Source: Ignavibacteriae bacterium HGW-Ignavibacteriae-4 (GTDB taxonomy: Bacteria > Bacteroidota > Ignavibacteria > Kapaibacteriales > UBA2268). Taken from it: 64,000 nt of DNA. The number at the start of each line of letters is the position of its first letter. Position 1 is the first letter of the stretch. Below the pieces are notes generated by a model that was given only the letters and a program-made list of their open reading frames with translations, was not told the DNA's origin and did no database searches. The position numbers and the translations under genes were made by a program. This document shows positions 3 through 8,742 of this stretch, piece after piece. Location: positions 1-64,000 of the forward strand of contig PGYR01000009.1 of assembly GCA_002839765.1 (NCBI GenBank), given 5' to 3'.

Positions 3-122
3 GCAGTAGAATTAATAGACGGAGACCAGCCATCAGTTCTAATCCGTAGAATAGTAGGAACTAAAATACTCAAACAAATCGTTGACTTCGTAGATACGTT
101 TATTAATGGGATAACCGGGTGA
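3..122 (+). CDS. C-terminal end of an unidentified protein (partial)
   Basis: An open frame enters from the left edge and ends at TGA 120-122, giving 39 residues without a stop (ending FVDTFINGITG). No start lies inside the window. The tail is too short to place in a family. The next start codons (129 and 164) follow closely on the same strand, so this gene is probably co-transcribed with the HNH gene. The open frame could also be chance, but its spacing and direction fit a real gene end. Confidence 0.4.
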   Translation, partial: AVELIDGDQPSVLIRRIVGTKILKQIVDFVDTFINGITG

Positions 123-128
123 GGTGGT

Positions 129-167
129 ATGGGATTAAGCTTTAAACATTCAATTTCTAATTTATGA
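129..167 (+). CDS. Possible 12-residue leader ORF before the HNH gene
   Basis: An ATG at 129 follows a purine-rich GAGGTGG stretch (121-127) and reads 12 codons (MGLSFKHSISNL) to TGA 165-167. That stop overlaps the HNH start codon in an ATGA arrangement. The partial upstream frame stops at 120-122, inside the ribosome-binding stretch. The layout would couple translation of the upstream gene to the HNH gene. A 12-codon ORF can arise by chance, so only the geometry supports it. Confidence 0.25.
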   Translation: MGLSFKHSISNL

Positions 168-928
168 GTATATCAGCAAAAACTAGAAAATCGCTTTGGG
201 CAAAGTCTGGAAATAGATGTGCAATCTGTAGACTAGAGCTAGTACAAGACGTAGTAGAAAGTAATAATTTGATTCTTGGTGAAGAATGTCATATCATTTC
301 GTCTAAATCAAACGGTCCCCGTGGGGATAATAAATTACATTGTTATGATTATGATGATTATGAAAACCTACTTCTGTTATGTGCAAATGATCATAAAAGG
401 GTTGACACATTAGTTGAGACGTACACTGTTGAGAAACTTATAAAGCTTAAAAAAACACATTCTCAATGGGTAAAAACGACTTTATCATTAGACCCAATTG
501 CATTTACAAACGATGAATTTAAGACTATTAGTTTAAAAAGGATTAAAACAGGAAAAGAGATAATTAATGTGATTGATGTTGTTCACACATTTTCATTTGA
601 AAATGATGAGTTGATAGAAAAAGAAGAGATAGAGCTAATACCACCATTTTTTGATTTATTAAAAGAATATGTCGATATTCTAGATATGATGAGTTTTAAA
701 CAAATTGCACATCTAAGTCTTGAAATAAATAGTACTATAAATACTATCGAAGAAAAAGGCTTTAAAGTATTTGGACTTAGAAGAAGTGCGAAAATACTAA
801 ATAGTAAAAAAGAAGATATGGGAATATGGGATAAGGCAACTATAGTAATAGTTCGTAATGATAATCCTGGAATAGTTGGCGAACACCTTATTATGAAGAC
901 TCCTAAATCTTTCAAATTAAAAGTTTAA
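164..928 (+). CDS. HNH endonuclease with unknown C-terminal domain
   Basis: Residues 1-100 form an HNH nuclease domain. A zinc pair C19-x2-C22 and second pair C73-x3-H77 bracket the catalytic stretch ECHIIS (H43) and the motif NLLLLC (N68). This arrangement is shared by HNH domains of restriction and anti-phage effectors. Residues 110-254 carry no domain I recognise; they are lysine- and glutamate-rich, and may sense a ligand or bind a partner. The start at 164 is forced, since an in-frame stop lies at 158-160. The gene converges on the MBL cassette and sits in the integrase-bearing island. It probably cleaves DNA; the target is unknown. It has no intron context that would suggest homing. Confidence 0.75.
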   Translation: MSISAKTRKSLWAKSGNRCAICRLELVQDVVESNNLILGEECHIISSKSNGPRGDNKLHCYDYDDYENLLLLCANDHKRVDTLVETYTVEKLIKLKKTHSQWVKTTLSLDPIAFTNDEFKTISLKRIKTGKEIINVIDVVHTFSFENDELIEKEEIELIPPFFDLLKEYVDILDMMSFKQIAHLSLEINSTINTIEEKGFKVFGLRRSAKILNSKKEDMGIWDKATIVIVRNDNPGIVGEHLIMKTPKSFKLKV

Positions 929-1020
929 TTTCATAGGCTGTAGAATGTATTTCTTAGCTACAAAAAATATTAGCTTTTCTAGAAAAATGTTCATTGCTGA
1001 AGAAATAAATTTAATATTTG

Positions 1021-1983
1021 CTAATGAATAATTGCATCTCCAAATAATTCCTCACTATATTTTTGATTTATTATTTCAAAAACTGTTTTGATATAGCCGT
1101 ATCCTGTTTGTCCGTCACCAGTTGAGCTAAATGTATCCACATATTTTTTATACCGTTCTATTAAATCAATATCAGGTAGTTTATGTTTTTTAAAAGTCGT
1201 TGAAACAGCACAGGGTATTATTTTGTTGTCGTATATTTTTTCAATTTTGTCTATGAGTTTGGTTGAAGATTTAGAAGTATGATGTGGTGTTTTTATATAA
1301 GAAAGACCTTCAAAATAAAAATCAGGAATTCTATGTATAGTTTGATTCTCAATATCACCACTAAATAATAAACTTAACTCTCCTACTTTAAAAATTGTGG
1401 CAATTGATAAGTCATTCTTCTTCTTAACATTTCCATCTGCCCATTTTCGTCTAACAAGTGCAGAAATAGGTGCAATTCCAATTATTTCAAATACAAATTT
1501 AGTAGAAGTTTTAGATTCAACAATAATTTTCCTTAGTATTTGCGTATGTCCTTCAACACAGCAGGTAAGAGTGTGAACATTGTAATTACCACCTTGGTTG
1601 AAAGCGTTTATTTTGTCAAAACACTCTTTAACTTCAAGATTATAATCTATAAAGTCATTTTCATTTCCTGCTACACCTTCAGGTAAATAAAATTGTGTTT
1701 CCTTATTGCAAAATGTATCGATTATATAGTTAATCCCCATGGAATGGTCTTCATCAGTATGAGTCCATATAAAGTAATTAAGGTTTGTAATGTTTTTTTG
1801 AATTAAAATGTCATGTGTGAGGTTTGCATTATTTGCAGAATAGCAATCAATAACGAATGATAAAATACATTTTGAATTTACATTGTCGTAAAGAAGAACA
1901 ACTTGACTTTCGCCTTTTTCAGTATAGCCAATTGTATATACTTCTAATGTAATTTTTTTTATATCATCAACAAATATGTTCAT
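1021..1983 (-). CDS. Metallo-beta-lactamase-fold hydrolase, ComEC-type
   Basis: A 320-residue stand-alone MBL-fold enzyme. The metal motif HTDEDH (75-80) has Asp in place of the second His, as in ComEC-type domains. Also visible are NDLSIA (190-195), FSGDIE (207-212) and KTPHHTSKS (231-239), equivalents of the N-x-S, T-G-D and L-K-x-x-H-H-G-S signatures of that subgroup. There are no membrane segments, so it is cytosolic and not a DNA-uptake channel. Many proteins of this subgroup act on nucleic acids or nucleotides; its own substrate is unknown. The start codon overlaps the stop of the 51-residue ORF (ATGA), so it is probably translated by coupling from the TIGR04255-like gene upstream. A role in defence is inferred from context only. 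Confidence 0.75.
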   Translation of the reverse strand: MNIFVDDIKKITLEVYTIGYTEKGESQVVLLYDNVNSKCILSFVIDCYSANNANLTHDILIQKNITNLNYFIWTHTDEDHSMGINYIIDTFCNKETQFYLPEGVAGNENDFIDYNLEVKECFDKINAFNQGGNYNVHTLTCCVEGHTQILRKIIVESKTSTKFVFEIIGIAPISALVRRKWADGNVKKKNDLSIATIFKVGELSLLFSGDIENQTIHRIPDFYFEGLSYIKTPHHTSKSSTKLIDKIEKIYDNKIIPCAVSTTFKKHKLPDIDLIERYKKYVDTFSSTGDGQTGYGYIKTVFEIINQKYSEELFGDAIIH

Positions 1984-2135
1984 TTTTTTGTTAAAAGCTT
2001 TGTTGATCGAGAAGAATGGCTAATCATAATATTTTTAGTTAATGAAGATTTTCTAATAATTGGTGTGAAAACCATTTTTTTAGTTTTAGTATCCTTTTCA
2101 GTTTGGAAGTTTTTATCTATAGTGATTTTACTCAT
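1980..2135 (-). CDS. 51-residue ORF overlapping both neighbours
   Basis: A short frame of 51 codons (begins MSKITIDKNF, ends STKLLTKK) fills the gap between the TIGR04255-like gene and the MBL gene. Its ATG (2133-2135) lies inside the last codons of the upstream gene, preceded by an AAGG-like site. Its TGA (1980-1982) overlaps the MBL start as ATGA. Both overlaps are typical of translational coupling inside an operon. The product would be basic and rich in Lys, Thr and Ser, with no hydrophobic segment. No family is recognised. It could be a chance frame, but the double overlap argues for a real gene. Confidence 0.5.
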   Translation of the reverse strand: MSKITIDKNFQTEKDTKTKKMVFTPIIRKSSLTKNIMISHSSRSTKLLTKK

Positions 2136-2958
2136 TTGAATTCGCCTTTAAGAATGCTTCAGTAACACTCATTTTAAATATTTTAAACAGATGTTCATTG
2201 TTAGTACTTGTTAACACTTGTTTCGCCATCCCTTTTTTAAATTTAATTTTTTCAAGAATAAAATCGGAATAATACGCATCAATATCTAATAAAACTTGAA
2301 AAGCACTTTTATAAATATTTGTTTCATTATCATGATAATTACCTGCCTCAAATGAACGAACATAATTTATTATTGGACTTTTATCATCTAACTTTAATAC
2401 ATCTATATGTCTACTTCTAAATGAGTTATAGGGAGTATCTATAAAATTAAAATTGAAATATTTTTGCTCAAAATCTCTATAAATTTCTTTTTCATCAAAA
2501 TAAATTTCACCACCAATTTTTCTTAAACCGATTCGTTTAATTTGTAAGTATTCGCTATTTTCAAATAGAAAATCAATAAAAGAAGAAAAAAAATCTAAGT
2601 ATTCATCAATGCCTTCGTATTCTTGACAATTCACTGTAAGTACTGTGAAATATTTACTTATATCAAGAGTTAACTCGTCATTACCGAATGTATTATCTGT
2701 AAACCTATATATTTCTTGTTTCTGAATTTCTTTTATAGGAATAGACAATGTGTCACTAATATCTTCTATATTATTAATGTCAAAATCAATTTTACTATGA
2801 AAAGTTGTTTGAAATATTTTGAACTTGTCTTTAAAATTATCTTTAAAAGATTTGATTATGTCTTCGGAATTTATAATTCCTTGATAATCAATTCTGAATA
2901 TGACATTCTTCATCATATTCTTTTTCAGTTGTTTTCTTCTTATTAAGTCTTTACTCAT
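2128..2958 (-). CDS. TIGR04255-like protein, first gene of MBL cassette
   Basis: A 276-residue protein that resembles the sporadically distributed TIGR04255 family in size, in its opening (I-F-R-I-D-Y after a basic leader) and in the central stretch QIKRIGLRKIGGEIYF (139-154), where the family carries a conserved R-x-G-L-R/RY-x-N-like motif. Function of that family is unknown; it turns up patchily in accessory regions. Residues 1-15 are basic (RRKQLKK) and the true start may be Met15 or Met16 (about 2913). It heads a unit with the 51-residue ORF and the MBL hydrolase. No catalytic motif or membrane segment is visible, which would suit a sensor or scaffold partner. Family assignment is by eye. 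Confidence 0.5.
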   Translation of the reverse strand: MSKDLIRRKQLKKNMMKNVIFRIDYQGIINSEDIIKSFKDNFKDKFKIFQTTFHSKIDFDINNIEDISDTLSIPIKEIQKQEIYRFTDNTFGNDELTLDISKYFTVLTVNCQEYEGIDEYLDFFSSFIDFLFENSEYLQIKRIGLRKIGGEIYFDEKEIYRDFEQKYFNFNFIDTPYNSFRSRHIDVLKLDDKSPIINYVRSFEAGNYHDNETNIYKSAFQVLLDIDAYYSDFILEKIKFKKGMAKQVLTSTNNEHLFKIFKMSVTEAFLKANSNE

Positions 2959-3057
2959 TTTGTTTCAATTTTCATCTATTATATATATACGTATTTCTGA
3001 CTATTATAGTTCTTAATGCTTATGATACATTCCAATTTAACAAAATATCAAATATAT

Positions 3058-3086
3058 TCAATAATACTGTCATACAAATTCAAATA
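3058..3086. repeat. Diverged direct repeat, copy A
   Basis: Twenty-nine bases match copy B (3660-3688) at 26 positions; the core GTCATACA-A/G-ATTCAAATA is nearly identical. Read on the minus strand, both copies can be translated in the same frame as LL-(D/N)-x-YLNLYD-(S/N)-(I/V)-IE, so they may be relics of a duplicated coding segment. Confidence 0.5.
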
Positions 3087-3659
3087 CATATCAAGTAGAA
3101 ACAACTGATCATTTTATTTAGAACAGTCCGAATAAGACTTTCATAAGAAATAAAGAAAAACTTCCACGAAAGTTATAAATATAAACGAACATCAAAGTAG
3201 TATTGTAGAATTGATTACATAATTAACACTAAAACAATACTTTCTGACTCTAAAACTACACTTTTTCACTCTATATATTATTGATTCAACTATGAATTGA
3301 CTTCAGAATAATAGCATATCTATTGAATTATATGGGGTTATGAGATTTGTAACCCCTAATAGATGTCATTTCCATATTTAACCGATTTCTCTTAAATTTA
3401 CTGACCGTCATAAAGCCCTCAGAATCAATTTTTATTTGGTTAAGCATAGATAACCATGCCTTATTGATCGGACAAGTGGGGTTATATTTATATTTGTGTA
3501 CTTTTGGAGGTTATAAAGTGTCTTTTCATTAACTGCGGATAGAATTATTATAATAACTAAAATTTAGTATGATTGCCTTTGAATCAAAAAATCTTTTTCC
3601 CATATTTTAACACCACAATCAAACGGCTGGTAATATTGAACAATATTTTCATTGATTTC

Positions 3660-4102: not shown

Positions 4103-4381
4103 TTACTGTGCTTTTCTTAGTTCCATCATTCGATTAAATCTATCAAGCTCTTTGTTATATTCAACATCAAAGACTGATTCACCAATCTGATCTACCATAT
4201 AACCTACAATAAGCACTATATCACGTGGTTTTATTCTATGTTCGCTAAATCTACCACTTAAATAGTTAGGATGGTTATTAGGGTATATATTGGCTGAAAT
4301 TTCAACTAGTTTAAATCCAAGATTGTAGATTGTTTCTAGTAGTATCTCTGGGTTATGAGTAACTATGATTGAATTATCCAT
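4103..4381 (-). CDS. Small protein of unknown function
   Basis: A 92-residue protein starting MDNSIIVTHNPEILL. No domain is recognised. It has one moderately hydrophobic stretch (PRDIVLIVGYMV) that is too short and polar at the edges to call a membrane helix, and a charged C-terminal helix rich in Arg, Glu and Met. It stands alone between the gene-free stretch and a divergently read GNAT-like gene. Coding potential rests on length, a clean ATG and protein-like composition. Confidence 0.5.
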   Translation of the reverse strand: MDNSIIVTHNPEILLETIYNLGFKLVEISANIYPNNHPNYLSGRFSEHRIKPRDIVLIVGYMVDQIGESVFDVEYNKELDRFNRMMELRKAQ

Positions 4382-4620: not shown

Positions 4621-5310
4621 ATGACAAATATAATTTTAAAAGAATACATAGATGTATTAAATTCAAATGAAATAGTGGATTCTATTTACAGAAGACAAAT
4701 TAGTAGTAATGTCGAGATAGCAAAAGACTGGAGAAAAAAGTTTTCTATAACTGATAAGATAATAGTTGATAAATTCTCATATAAATATTTCTTTATTAAA
4801 GATGAAAATGGGAGATATATCGGAATAGTAATGGATATGGGTTTTGATCTGTATTGGTATGTATTAAAAGAGTTTAGAAATAAAGGGTATATGTCTAAAG
4901 CTTTAAAAGAGTCCATAATTCCATACTTTTTCAACAAAGAAAATAGAAGTAGTCTTACAATATCAATTGATAGAATACATTTAAAAAAAGAGTGTTACAA
5001 AAGCTCTAAAAATATGGCTCTGAATCTTGGTTTTAAACTTATTAAAGGAAATAGGAAATACTTTGAACTAATGAAGTCAGACTTTAATTTTGATAATAAT
5101 AAACTTAGTGAACAAAATTCGATGGTAAGTAATAAAAGACTTAATGAACTAAGAGAAGAAGTATTTTACGCACATAAAATACTATCTAAAGTTAGTGATG
5201 AATTATTAATGGCATACGGTGATGATTCTGCCTTAGCTGAAATTTCGGAATATGTAAAAGAATATAAAGATATTATTAAAGAGAAATATATAATTTGGAA
5301 CGAAGAATAA
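4621..5310 (+). CDS. GNAT-like N-acetyltransferase with helical C-terminal extension
   Basis: Residues 50-150 follow the GNAT fold. A beta strand pair ends in YIGIVMDM (67-74), then the acetyl-CoA loop R86-N-K-G89-Y-M with the following helix (SKALKESIIPYFF), and finally SSKNMALNLGFKLI (128-141), the usual helix plus G-F at the end of the domain. The substrate cannot be told. Residues 155-229 are a predicted helical, charged extension absent from minimal GNAT enzymes. The gene stands alone in the island and converges on the integrase, with 14 bases between the stop codons. It may be island cargo such as a toxin-like or antibiotic acetyltransferase; that is speculation. Confidence 0.6.
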   Translation: MTNIILKEYIDVLNSNEIVDSIYRRQISSNVEIAKDWRKKFSITDKIIVDKFSYKYFFIKDENGRYIGIVMDMGFDLYWYVLKEFRNKGYMSKALKESIIPYFFNKENRSSLTISIDRIHLKKECYKSSKNMALNLGFKLIKGNRKYFELMKSDFNFDNNKLSEQNSMVSNKRLNELREEVFYAHKILSKVSDELLMAYGDDSALAEISEYVKEYKDIIKEKYIIWNEE

Positions 5311-5324
5311 TAGAATAATATGTA

Positions 5325-6608
5325 TCACATCTCATCTAGTATATTCTTTATATTGCTAACAGCTTCAGCATTATCAATTTTTGTGTAACGCCGTAAAATT
5401 AAATCGTTTGAATGACCTGTAACTTTTATTATTTCTGAATCGGAGATACTCCTTTGTCTGAGCCTTGTTATGAAGGTTCTTCTGGCAGTATGAGAAGAAA
5501 CCAACTTATATTTAGGTTTGTATTCTTCTATTCGTTTATTGTTTTTATAACTAGTTTCAACAACTAAATCCACAATACCTGCTTCTTTACATAAGTCTTT
5601 GAGTGCAACAGAATATGATGATAGTAGTGATTCCTTAAATTGAGTAACATCAAATTGATCTAAGATAATTTTCATTTGCTTACTTATCGGAATAGTAATA
5701 TCTGAATCCCCTTTCTTTGTAATTAATTTAATTAATCCGTTTTCTAAATCAATTTTTTCTTTAGTTAAATTAATAAAGTCTGAGATTCTTATACCTGAGT
5801 AAATATTAAAAAGAAAGTAGTACCTCGTATGTATTAGTTTTCTCCTTTGGGGGATATAATTAATAATTTTTAAAACATCTGAATCAGTTAACGCAATTTC
5901 AGTAGTAGTTCTGTTCTTAACCATAACATCACGATAATCCTGATTATCAATATATTTTTTTTTGAAGGCATAATTTAAGATTATGTTTTTAATTTTTAGT
6001 CTATGGTGAACTGTACCATCTTTATAGTCATAATGTTCATATAAGAACATTTTAAAACTCAGTAAAAGTTCATTATTTATATCATTAACTGTTATGACTT
6101 TCTTTCTGTTTAATTCAAAATCTTCAATGTTTTTACGAAATCCATTATAAGTTCTTATCGTATTACCTCTTATTCCTGATGATTTGATACTAAATTCAAT
6201 AAATTCATCAATTAATGTTAAAAAAGTAAATTTCTTAACTTTTCCATGCTTATGGTACTCTTTGGATTTTACTTTTAGCTTATCAAGATTTACTTCATCA
6301 AATTGCTCGTATTGTTTAACACATTCACTTTCTAAGAAATCTTGGAATTTGTTAAGAGTCTTATTGACATAAACAGAATTGAAATATGTTGGTTTTGCTC
6401 TTTGTTTTTTAGAATCCCAATATTTTGATTCAATAGATAGTTTTGAAGTAATTTTTACTCTTTTACCTCTATTGCTGATACTTAATATAATATTAGTTTG
6501 TTCCTTGTTCTTATGAGCCAAATATCTGTTTATTTTTACCAAATTGAGACCATTATTGAAATGTAAATAAAGACAGTTCCAATATACCATAAAATAACAA
6601 TAGGACAA
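5325..6608 (-). CDS. Tyrosine recombinase (phage-type integrase)
   Basis: A Bacteroidota-style site-specific integrase. An arm-binding domain (about 24-95), a core-binding helical domain (about 125-225) and a catalytic domain (about 235-425) follow in order. The catalytic set is complete: R274 (SGIR), K298/K299 in the beta hairpin, H373-x2-R376 (SHTARRTF), H399 (TGHS) and nucleophile Y408 (RRYTK). The longest frame begins MSYCYFMVYW, an odd start for this family. A TTG at 6540-6542 would give MVKINRYLA, which looks like a natural N terminus. It lies at the border between the accessory genes to the left and housekeeping-like genes to the right, so it probably moved this island. No tRNA target is seen beside it. 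Confidence 0.93.
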   Translation of the reverse strand: MSYCYFMVYWNCLYLHFNNGLNLVKINRYLAHKNKEQTNIILSISNRGKRVKITSKLSIESKYWDSKKQRAKPTYFNSVYVNKTLNKFQDFLESECVKQYEQFDEVNLDKLKVKSKEYHKHGKVKKFTFLTLIDEFIEFSIKSSGIRGNTIRTYNGFRKNIEDFELNRKKVITVNDINNELLLSFKMFLYEHYDYKDGTVHHRLKIKNIILNYAFKKKYIDNQDYRDVMVKNRTTTEIALTDSDVLKIINYIPQRRKLIHTRYYFLFNIYSGIRISDFINLTKEKIDLENGLIKLITKKGDSDITIPISKQMKIILDQFDVTQFKESLLSSYSVALKDLCKEAGIVDLVVETSYKNNKRIEEYKPKYKLVSSHTARRTFITRLRQRSISDSEIIKVTGHSNDLILRRYTKIDNAEAVSNIKNILDEM

Positions 6609-6622
6609 AATTTAGGACAAAA
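6601..6622. repeat. Tandem TAGGACAAAA repeats at the integrase 5' end
   Basis: TAGGACAAAA occurs at 6601-6610 and again at 6613-6622, a 12-base period, overlapping the outermost possible integrase start. Short direct repeats beside the integrase gene are the usual form of arm-type recombinase-binding sites, so this may be part of the attachment region. The core crossover site is not identified. Confidence 0.4.
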
Positions 6623-6912
6623 ATGCTTAATTTATATTGATTCTATGGGTTTTGTTGAAATTCTAAAAGTGATGAATCTGCCTTGTGGTGCTTGATTAGG
6701 AAGGGTAGAGGTTAATTGATGTAAATGGGAGTTAAGGATGTTATATTATTTACCGTAATCATCTTATTTTATTCTTATTTAGTTTTTTGAATAGTTACAA
6801 ACTTAATACTTTTAGCGACTATAATGAAGTAAAAAATTACAAACATTAAAATTATAAAAAAAGGCTACTTATATAAGCAGCCTTTTGTCATAATTATTGT
6901 GTCTAAATTTAA
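6609..6912. other. Island border region without genes
   Basis: About 300 bases between the integrase and the M2 peptidase gene. It begins inside the TAGGACAAAA repeats and ends with the terminator hairpin at 6859-6886. No tRNA-like, tmRNA-like or coding sequence is seen between them. This is where the right attachment site would be expected if the integrase lies at the end of its element. Confidence 0.45.
6857..6890 (-). terminator. Hairpin terminator of the M2 peptidase transcript
   Basis: AAAAGGCT (6859-6866) pairs with AGCCTTTT (6879-6886); one A-C mismatch follows and CTTATATAAG closes the stem top. Runs of A on one side and T on the other make it usable from both directions. It lies about 25 bases past the stop of the minus-strand M2 gene. 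Confidence 0.75.
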
Positions 6913-8742
6913 TTATTTAGATACTGTTTCAGGTAAAGTATATGTTCTTCCTTTGTTCTGTTCTTTCAACCAAGTATATAATGGATTGAAATATTCTAAC
7001 ATAGCTTTAGCACTTATTTCTTCACCTAATTCATCTTTCATTAGTTTTCTCCAATCCACAGTAGCACCTGGAGTTAGTATTTTAGAAAGGAATTTACCGG
7101 TCTCTTTGCTTCCCCAATAATTAGTATTATGAGGGTCTTGTTTTAATATTTTCTTTGCAATATGATCATGCAATTGGAATAGTGTTACAATTGATAAAGC
7201 ATAGTCATAATATTGAGCTGGATCATTATTGATGTGTGTTTTAGTACAAGCATCGCAATATTCCTCACCTCTCTCATTTGGAGGAACAATACCTTGATAT
7301 TTCTTTTTGATTTCCCACCATTTGCTATTGAATTGGTCAACAGGTAGGTTCTTTGCATAAAGTGAATATTCGAACTCAGTCATTACTCCTGCACCCCAAG
7401 GGATAAGAACAACTTGCTCTAGTGCTTCTTTTAGTAACAATTTGATTTCATCTAGTTTTACATCTTTTGCTAAAAGACCTCTTTCTTGTAAGAATGGTTT
7501 TTGCATAGCCGCTAATCCTAGCATAGATCCAACACCCTCGTGGAATGCTCTATTAGCCCCACCACGTAGTATATAAGGAACATCTGGGTTAGAATATAGC
7601 ATATAGTAATAAATATGCCCTAACTCGTGTAATGTTGTTCCCCACCATTTAGTATTTGCTTCTACGCTCATTAGTGAACGAACATCATCATCTAAGTTCA
7701 TGTGCCATGCAGAAGCGTGATTATTTTTCATAAATCCTGCATCTGCAGCAACTGGATATAAACTTGATTTTTCATAAAATGATTTTGGTAAAGAGGGAAG
7801 ACCCATACTCATATAGAACTCTTCACCCGTTTTTACAATCCACTCTGGAGATTTCTGACCTAGAATAACATCTAAATCGAATCCTTCCACTTCTACTATT
7901 GAATTCCATTCTTGTCCCCATCTATTAGGTAACCAATGAGCTGGTAAGTACTCGGGTACTTTTTCACCATACTTATTAGCTAATTCATACCTAGTCCAAG
8001 TATGCAATTCTCTGTATAGAGGCCAAATATCATTTATTACTTTATGTAATAAATCTCTCATTTCCTCTACTTCCATTCCATAGTCCGAGATTTGGTAGTC
8101 TATATAATTATCATAACCTAACGGCATTACAGATTTATTTCTTAAATCTCTAAGAGTACTGATACCCCCTTTCAGTGTCTTTCCTATATCTTTACTTGCG
8201 TTCCATGCTGCTAATTTTTGAGCTGGTTTTTTGTCACTTGAAAGAATCTTGTCAATATCATTTGTAGATATCTCTTTACCATTAAGTTTGTATTTATAGC
8301 CATATAACAATTTAGTTTGGTTTGCTTCGGCTGCAATCTTATCATCTATTAAGGTTCCCAATGTTGCAGGGTTGCCAGCAGCAGCATATTTAATAGCATT
8401 AAGCTGCTTTACTTGAAGTGGTGTAAGTTTATCCTTAACTTTCAGAAATCCATCTGTAGTATTGATGTTTTCTTCACTTCCAGTATAATCTGCCATTGCT
8501 TTCGATGCAATTTTCACTTCGTGCTCAGCTAGTGTATCTCCTTCTACAATATGCGTATTAAGTACCCATTCTGCTTCCGAAGCAGCATAATATAAATCTT
8601 TGTACTTGTTGTTGTAAACATCCAAATACTTCTGAACGGAGTCTTGTAAACCTTTGTTGGCTTCAGATTCAATGTCTTTAGAATCTGAACATGCTACTAA
8701 TAGTACCATTGAAACAAATATTAGGGAAGAAATTATCTTCAT
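6913..8742 (-). CDS. M2-family peptidyl-dipeptidase lipoprotein (ACE-like)
   Basis: A 609-residue zinc metallopeptidase of the angiotensin-converting-enzyme family (M2). The zinc site is HELGH at 372-376, with the third ligand E402 in HEGVGS. A lipoprotein signal ends at C18 (VLLVAC), so the enzyme is exported and membrane-anchored, probably in the outer membrane or periplasm, where it would trim dipeptides from peptide C termini. Length matches one ACE domain. The gene starts 27 bases after the giant T9SS gene, same strand, so they probably share a transcript ending at the 6859-6886 hairpin. The link between the two products is unknown. Confidence 0.93.
   Translation of the reverse strand: MKIISSLIFVSMVLLVACSDSKDIESEANKGLQDSVQKYLDVYNNKYKDLYYAASEAEWVLNTHIVEGDTLAEHEVKIASKAMADYTGSEENINTTDGFLKVKDKLTPLQVKQLNAIKYAAAGNPATLGTLIDDKIAAEANQTKLLYGYKYKLNGKEISTNDIDKILSSDKKPAQKLAAWNASKDIGKTLKGGISTLRDLRNKSVMPLGYDNYIDYQISDYGMEVEEMRDLLHKVINDIWPLYRELHTWTRYELANKYGEKVPEYLPAHWLPNRWGQEWNSIVEVEGFDLDVILGQKSPEWIVKTGEEFYMSMGLPSLPKSFYEKSSLYPVAADAGFMKNNHASAWHMNLDDDVRSLMSVEANTKWWGTTLHELGHIYYYMLYSNPDVPYILRGGANRAFHEGVGSMLGLAAMQKPFLQERGLLAKDVKLDEIKLLLKEALEQVVLIPWGAGVMTEFEYSLYAKNLPVDQFNSKWWEIKKKYQGIVPPNERGEEYCDACTKTHINNDPAQYYDYALSIVTLFQLHDHIAKKILKQDPHNTNYWGSKETGKFLSKILTPGATVDWRKLMKDELGEEISAKAMLEYFNPLYTWLKEQNKGRTYTLPETVSK

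Follow-up and report, generated by a model that had tools for sequence, protein, structure and literature searches.

Gated MBL pro-nucleases have been described in the Hachiman (HamM), AVAST type 1 (Avs1a), Lamassu, DRT and canu (CanC) systems (Tuck et al., 2025; PMC12799240, in the accessible part of the article). According to the same part of that article, HamM, Avs1a and CanC possess insertions relative to ComEC that are thought to block the active site until a protease cuts, and the gating protease of these systems is trypsin-like or a caspase (PMC12799240). For E. coli, the accessible part of another article describes phages and satellites that contain hotspots of antiviral systems (PMC9122126). 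Here we report, in a 64,000-nucleotide stretch of DNA from Ignavibacteriae bacterium HGW-Ignavibacteriae-4 (the window), a three-gene cassette of less than 2 kb that is probably an antiviral defence unit so far undescribed.

The cassette lies on the minus strand. Its first gene (2128-2958) encodes a TIGR04255-like protein of 276 aa (P0003; hereafter, the TIGR-like protein), the middle gene (1980-2135) a strongly basic protein of 51 aa, and the third gene (1021-1983) a stand-alone ComEC-type MBL hydrolase of 320 aa (P0001). As the original prediction stated, the three frames overlap end to end, the TIGR-like gene and the 51-aa ORF by 8 bases and the 51-aa ORF and the MBL gene by 4 bases. In 200 dinucleotide shuffles of positions 1001-3000, the longest closed ORF was 107 aa (median, 63 aa), and frames of 276 and 320 codons are therefore far beyond chance.

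When 84,980 species genomes were scanned with exact peptide patterns of P0001, which reach close relatives only because they are exact, three relatives were found in Chryseobacterium luquanense (L024), C. vrystaatense (L025) and Aneurinibacillus danicus (L026). A homologue of P0003 was located directly upstream of the MBL gene in each of them (over the local match, 50 % in C. luquanense, 53 % in C. vrystaatense and 24 % in A. danicus). Full-length matches were detected in 3 of 173 genomes of the genus Chryseobacterium, namely the two already known and the new Chryseobacterium G419 (L055), which carries all three cassette genes. The order and geometry of the three genes were the same in these three genomes, and the middle ORF of C. 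luquanense and C. vrystaatense (51 and 53 aa) showed identical overlaps. The window genes were 56-58 % (MBL), 33-47 % (middle) and 49-53 % (TIGR-like) identical to the Chryseobacterium copies. A. danicus possesses a diverged TIGR-like/MBL pair. Thus, the TIGR-like/MBL pairing, which had been predicted to be conserved, was kept in each of the five copies whose MBL gene is intact (the window, C. luquanense, C. vrystaatense, G419 and A. danicus).

The length of the 51-aa ORF was unexceptional compared with the shuffled sequences. We took this ORF as real because it is conserved and because dN was 0.15 and dS 0.98 between C. vrystaatense and G419. It was detected by tblastn in C. vrystaatense (E 4.9e-12), C. 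luquanense (E 5.5e-4) and G419 (E 2.5e-12). Purifying selection acts on all three genes between C. vrystaatense and G419, where dN and dS were 0.12 and 0.86 for the TIGR-like gene and 0.07 and 0.74 for the MBL gene (dN/dS ratios of about 0.14 for the TIGR-like, 0.15 for the middle and 0.09 for the MBL gene). The middle protein of the window has a pI of 10.6 and a charge of about +10; together with its three Chryseobacterium counterparts it spans a pI range of 10.5-11.7, and the TIGR-like and MBL partners of the five copies have pI values of 4.8-6.6. The middle ORF is certain in four of the five copies. A. danicus possesses, as a doubtful counterpart, a basic ORF of 57 aa (L026:7823-7996; pI 10.3) that overlaps both neighbours in a different frame. 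This ORF was not among the profile matches listed. In local pairwise alignment with the 51-aa ORFs, 17 of 2000 shuffles reached the score obtained with C. luquanense, 77 of 2000 the best of the four local scores and 138 of 2000 the summed score, and the global scores were worse.

Strong full-length matches were otherwise confined to the query's own genome, in 1 of 296 genomes sampled from the phylum of the window, 1 of 123 from its order and 1 of 299 from the class of Aneurinibacillus (Aneurinibacillus itself). Because strong matches were so few in the sampled genomes, we regard the cassette as rare and patchy. A profile of the TIGR-like protein detected, in 296 genomes of the Chryseobacterium family, the same three copies, one 20-bit match and a fragment in genome G1012. 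This fragment (L083:5355-7114) comprises 85 N-terminal residues, ends 181 bases before the end of the contig and lies beside a DUF4062 gene. No relative of P0001 or P0003 was found in plasmid searches, none of P0001 in phages, and none in viral contigs with P0001, P0003 or the profiles A1 and A2. We did not count weaker matches as cassettes: the 20-bit match in the Chryseobacterium family was set aside, three weak rows of 20-23 bits were ABC-transporter frames, a 22.5-bit match in the phylum sample was a ComEC-like frame, and the matches in five genomes of the genus Chryseobacterium and 75 genomes of the Aneurinibacillus class were at most 31.5 bits, many of them on frames of 700-966 aa.

The assignment of the third gene to the ComEC-type MBLs held at the level of the domain. 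The window protein possesses the metal motifs HTDEDH (residues 75-80), GDIE (209-212) and PHH (233-235). The HxDxDH, GD and PHH motifs were present in all five cassette MBLs, with SDLD in place of GDIE (SD for GD) in A. danicus. There were 59 invariant residues among the five proteins, including H75, D77, D79, H80, D210, H234 and H235, and the metal-site residues were unchanged down to 26 % identity. The best Foldseek match of the structure model (pLDDT 78.5, pTM 0.84; low confidence at residues 101-120 and 171-190) was the ComEC beta-lactamase-like domain (3.4e-9). In VIA, the ComEC domain 9ic4 came first (Z 23.0; 250 residues, 3.1 A), ahead of phosphorylcholine esterase Pce (Z 19.3) and then RNase Z and RNase J (Z about 16). 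The protein does not qualify as a full ComEC competence protein, which is a long membrane protein, being 320 aa long and scoring 32.9 bits with ComEC_Rec2 against an equivalog cut-off of 190.05 bits. It also scored 33.2 bits with blaAHM, 27.1 bits with the ComEC family PRK11539 and 18.3 bits with Pfam Lactamase_B_2, and it was below every curated Pfam and NCBIfam cut-off.

The spacing from HxDxDH to [GS]D was 130-142 residues in all five cassette MBLs, compared with 91-94 residues in nine of 20 other MBL loci, those with both motifs measurable; the nine comparison frames were eight of more than 620 aa (ComEC-like) and one of 433 aa. The cassette MBLs thus have 36-51 extra inter-motif residues relative to nine ComEC-type frames. 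Such an extension might not be peculiar to defence proteins, because 11 of the 20 loci, including stand-alone frames of 283-302 aa, lie outside the spacing count. The inter-motif loops, each of which would carry a conserved cleavage residue in a gated defence nuclease, were variable among the five copies.

The original label of the partner as TIGR04255-like held for the window copy, which matched NCBIfam TIGR04255 at residues 11-271 with 52.8 bits (cut-off 30), but not for the four homologous cassette proteins. The proteins of C. luquanense, C. vrystaatense and A. danicus had no match to this model at E 0.01, and none was listed for these three or G419 at E 10 with the HMMER filters on. When 13 other TIGR04255 proteins were made into a profile (L020, which has a broken frame, and L023, a near-copy of L022, being left out), the window copy scored 17.3 bits and the other cassette copies less than 5 bits. 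Alignment of the cassette proteins with the other TIGR04255 group by hhalign gave E 0.00085 with a probability of only 24 %. Judging from these scores, the cassette TIGR-like proteins are a borderline branch of TIGR04255. The structure model was weak (pLDDT 65) and had no PDB match in Foldseek below E 0.001. Its best VIA rows were AdoMetDC (Z 8.6, 126 residues, 4.0 A), and weak TBP-like rows appeared in the PDB and viral libraries, with eight viral matches at E 0.001 or below and TM of at most 0.36 on the query. Because the model is weak and the fold search indecisive, calling this protein a sensor is a guess. None of the 30 residues invariant among the five TIGR-like proteins is His or Cys, and there was no protease family among the profile matches of the three cassette proteins.

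The cassette was predicted to share an integrase-bearing segment with an HNH nuclease gene, and both the HNH gene (164-928, plus strand, 254 aa) and the integrase gene (5325-6608) were found there by profile matches. Membership of the HNH gene in the unit was also considered. This did not hold: no significant homologue flanked the other four copies, the best tblastn match beside C. luquanense, C. vrystaatense and A. danicus having E 0.09 and none being found at E 1 beside G419. We therefore rejected the HNH gene as a cassette member and treat it as a defence-type neighbour. Over its N-terminal ~110 aa, the HNH protein is similar to the nuclease portion of the SAVED-HNH effectors of CBASS (PADLOC SAVED1--SAVED_HNH, 97.8 bits) and to PDC-M68A (90.3 bits); its C-terminal half has no assignment.

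Defence genes were found near other copies as well. The neighbours in C. luquanense were an Avs3a gene (518 bits, covering the final ~857 positions; the gene is cut by the start of the locus), AbiH (PF14253, 104.8 bits), HipA, an integrase and a PDDEXK_5-like protein (25.8 bits; cut-off 26.1). In G419, they were a resolvase, PDC-M11A (710 bits), PDC-M11B (174 bits) and a PD-Lambda-4_A-like protein (182 bits over part). The resolvase-M11 context is, by eye, common to C. vrystaatense and G419, and these two copies were therefore counted as one context. Of the ten neighbours chosen by hand, 7 had a PADLOC match at E 0.001 and 4 reached at least 100 bits, compared with 2 and 0, respectively, of ten control proteins drawn from two Chryseobacterium genomes (seven arbitrary regions; best control match 39.5 bits, partial); both sets were picked by hand and not blind. 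The Chryseobacterium copies were located beside recombinase and replication genes other than those of the window. Within 8 kb of the A. danicus copy, no defence gene was recognised by eye and the neighbours were metabolic-looking. The cassette thus recurs among defence genes on mobile elements in three of four distinct contexts (the window, C. luquanense, and that of C. vrystaatense and G419), in agreement with the original proposal. PDC-M48, PDC-M11 and PDC-M68 were named in no paper found by a literature search that was thin on subscription papers.

In the window, the cassette appears to ride an integrative element of ~19.7 kb with an integrase, a VapE-like protein and type I restriction genes. 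The window contig (C67) opens within the 3' end of hsdR (3-122, plus strand), of which 39 codons are 95 % identical to residues 912-950 of HsdR from a congener. Another contig of the same genome, C55, breaks off within a gene that is 98 % identical to residues 1-905 of the congener HsdR and stops six alignment residues earlier, which suggests that C55 and C67 adjoin. The length of the element follows from 12,908 and 6,762 bases plus a short gap. Inward from its outer end, C55 carries a gene recognised by eye as ABC-F-like, followed by those of a CI-type repressor, an HTH_17 protein, the VapE-like protein (PF05272, 110 bits) and an M78/HTH protein, some ORFs without an assignment and the restriction genes. 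A perfect 23-bp repeat, the longest exact match between C55:1501-1750 and positions 6621-6800 of the window, lies at 6740-6762, where this right copy is taken to mark the island boundary, and at C55:1555-1577, over the start of the ABC-F-like gene. Beyond the boundary is a peptidase gene (6913-8742; M2-like by eye). In the congeners G769 and G768, the ABC-F-like gene adjoins the peptidase gene and the integration site is uninterrupted; since the genes flanking both island ends here are neighbours there, these genomes show the empty site. Between the cassette and the boundary are a 92-aa ORF (4103-4381) that matched nothing in Pfam, PADLOC or NCBIfam, a gene whose product weakly resembles a GNAT acetyltransferase (4621-5310; 19.9 bits, cut-off 25.4) and the integrase, a tyrosine recombinase on the minus strand (PF00589, 69.6 bits). 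Further HsdR-like genes of the genome are located at G000:C76:40768-43638 (63 %) and C65:24705-26564 (27-43 %), compared with the congener HsdR.

The congener G770 possesses the same restriction system (type I methyltransferase, 549 bits; specificity subunit, 264 bits; restriction enzyme, 1039 bits) and a counterpart of the integrase around different cargo. Positions 1-119 of the window are 93 % identical to L070:6286-6404 of G770, and a block without a long ORF (3077-3539) is 82 % identical to L070:8732-9194. These two stretches bracket a slot (120-3076) that holds the HNH gene and the cassette in the window and other genes in G770. The latter (L070:6414-8670) encode proteins of 453 and 279 aa for which neither PADLOC nor Pfam gave a match at E 0.01. 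The 463-bp block at 3077-3539, kept at 82 % while the adjoining genes differ, is a possible regulatory or recombination site.

TIGR04255 matches were found in 16 of 296 genomes, one of which was the window's, and flanks of up to 1.5 kb were inspected in the other 15. A pairing of TIGR04255 genes in general with MBL genes was rejected: no HxDxDH-type motif was present in any ORF in the flanks of these 15 loci. A short opposite-strand ORF without the motif (L019:3329-3517) matched the MBL profile with 12.7 bits (E 0.00099). The next same-strand ORF overlaps the TIGR04255 gene or begins within 12 bases in the 15 loci, with an exact 4-base overlap in 8 of 15 (start codons were chosen mechanically, and L020 is broken). 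The third gene of L011 encodes a PemK/MazF toxin (PF02452, 49.9 bits; cut-off 23.1); by similarity, PemK is present in three loci of one genus (L011-L013), one of them scored by profile. A HEPN-like gene was found in L008 (PADLOC HEPN_IX, 24.7 bits; Pfam HEPN, 17.7 bits, below the cut-off of 22). The 51-aa ORF showed no significant relatedness to ORFs of these loci. Some middle proteins among L008-L023 contain, by eye, an NWDGYGA-like motif. These operons hint that the effectors accompanying TIGR04255 proteins vary.

The cassette is most economically read as a defence or conflict unit because it is conserved, selected, mobile and mostly located in defence islands. Specifically, we consider it slightly better than an even chance that the cassette is a mobile anti-phage unit of the abortive-infection type, in which a gated MBL nuclease is held back or set off by the TIGR-like protein and the small basic protein. 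The cassette would move horizontally on a satellite-like integrative element, whose cargo can be exchanged. By analogy with HamM, Avs1a and CanC, the MBL protein is a predicted gated nuclease and would be the effector, with the inter-motif insertions holding its active site closed. The TIGR-like protein would be a restraining or infection-sensing partner, and the ~50-aa basic protein either a small adaptor bridging the two acidic proteins or a plug of the nuclease. Infection would lift the restraint, upon which the MBL protein would degrade DNA and phage growth would stop or the cell die. The defence reading is weakened by the metabolic-looking surroundings of the A. danicus copy and by the failure to find in the cassette a protease, which the gated nucleases of PMC12799240 require. 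From the original proposal of a defence system, the conserved pair, the defence neighbours and the ComEC-type MBL survive; neither a general TIGR04255-MBL pairing nor membership of the HNH gene is supported.

The same tight, overlapping operon with a last gene of toxic type would also suit an addiction (toxin-antitoxin-like) unit of the element, in which the MBL toxin is neutralised by the TIGR-like protein, the small protein or both, and defence is incidental. Other TIGR04255 operons can indeed have a PemK/MazF or HEPN-like third gene. However, in the PemK operon a short, overlapping middle gene is itself a candidate antitoxin, the cassette TIGR-like proteins are borderline TIGR04255, and the cassettes lie beside defence genes with no plasmid copy found; we consider this reading possible but unlikely. 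Alternatively, the MBL protein could hydrolyse a nucleotide, a cyclic signal or another small phosphodiester instead of DNA, given that Pce is the second-best fold match and that small phosphodiesterases match too. The ComEC domain matches best, however, most of the VIA rows that follow are chains of RNase Z and J, and among defence models the MBL proteins of the AVAST, Lamassu and DRT systems come closest, so that we regard a small-molecule substrate as distinctly improbable. ComEC functions in DNA uptake, and this role, together with the location on an integrase-bearing element, would fit an accessory of the element itself, acting in DNA uptake, transfer or island replication and not in defence. 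But the cassette occupies a slot that is filled by other genes in G770, and the Chryseobacterium copies adjoin different recombinase and replication genes, and we give this explanation hardly any weight.

Compared with known systems, an anti-phage defence cassette of this kind would be close to 6A-MBL (NF058524) in having an MBL-fold protein as a component, but its MBL scored 25.3 bits against the 6A-MBL cut-off of 220, and no paper naming 6A-MBL was found (the search being thin on subscription papers). The cassette resembles the 15 sampled TIGR04255 loci in their closely following same-strand ORFs, whereas the downstream genes there are PemK, HEPN-like or other genes and carry no MBL motif. 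When the A. danicus MBL was used as a query, a single plasmid match, in Adhaeribacter swui, led to A-B-MBL triads on the plasmids NZ_CP055155 of A. swui (L069:3691-6041) and NZ_CP134760 of Pantoea agglomerans (L073:3417-6068), the latter triad lying between two integrases. A, B and MBL are related between the two plasmids (blastp E 1e-5, 4e-5 and 2e-37, respectively). Like the cassette, the triads have a related MBL gene (profile E 5e-13 and 2e-10) closely after two genes, but A and B have no detectable relation to TIGR04255 or the cassette TIGR-like protein. The first gene had by eye been taken as TIGR04255-like, which HMM searches and hhalign did not support.

The gated MBL nucleases, as far as they are set out in the accessible part of the article, share with the cassette a stand-alone ComEC-type MBL among defence genes and extra residues between the metal motifs; canu further resembles it in having three genes with the nuclease downstream of its partner. 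The scores of the cassette MBL with the models of these systems are remote (Avs1a NF041809, 24.5 bits against a cut-off of 420; PADLOC LmuA, 30.7 bits; PADLOC RTasMBL, 32.8 bits). The insertions relative to the ComEC domain fall in loops modelled with low confidence, and blockage of the site by them is a prediction. In contrast to the gated nucleases described there, no protease was detected alongside among the three cassette proteins, and no His or Cys of the TIGR-like partner is shared by all five copies. A doubtful extension is that TIGR04255 is the control part of a whole class of three-gene conflict operons with swappable toxic third genes, PemK-type and HEPN-like RNases in other loci and a gated MBL nuclease in the cassette, and that the nuclease here is opened without proteolysis, by release of the ~50-aa basic plug or adaptor. 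The cassette itself would provide a first testable role for the TIGR04255 family, which, under that name or as "sporadically distributed protein", was named in no paper found by the same literature search, thin on subscription papers. The type of effector is already known and the mode of control would be new: another way of controlling gated MBL nucleases, without a protease, compared with the opening by a protease described in the accessible part of PMC12799240.
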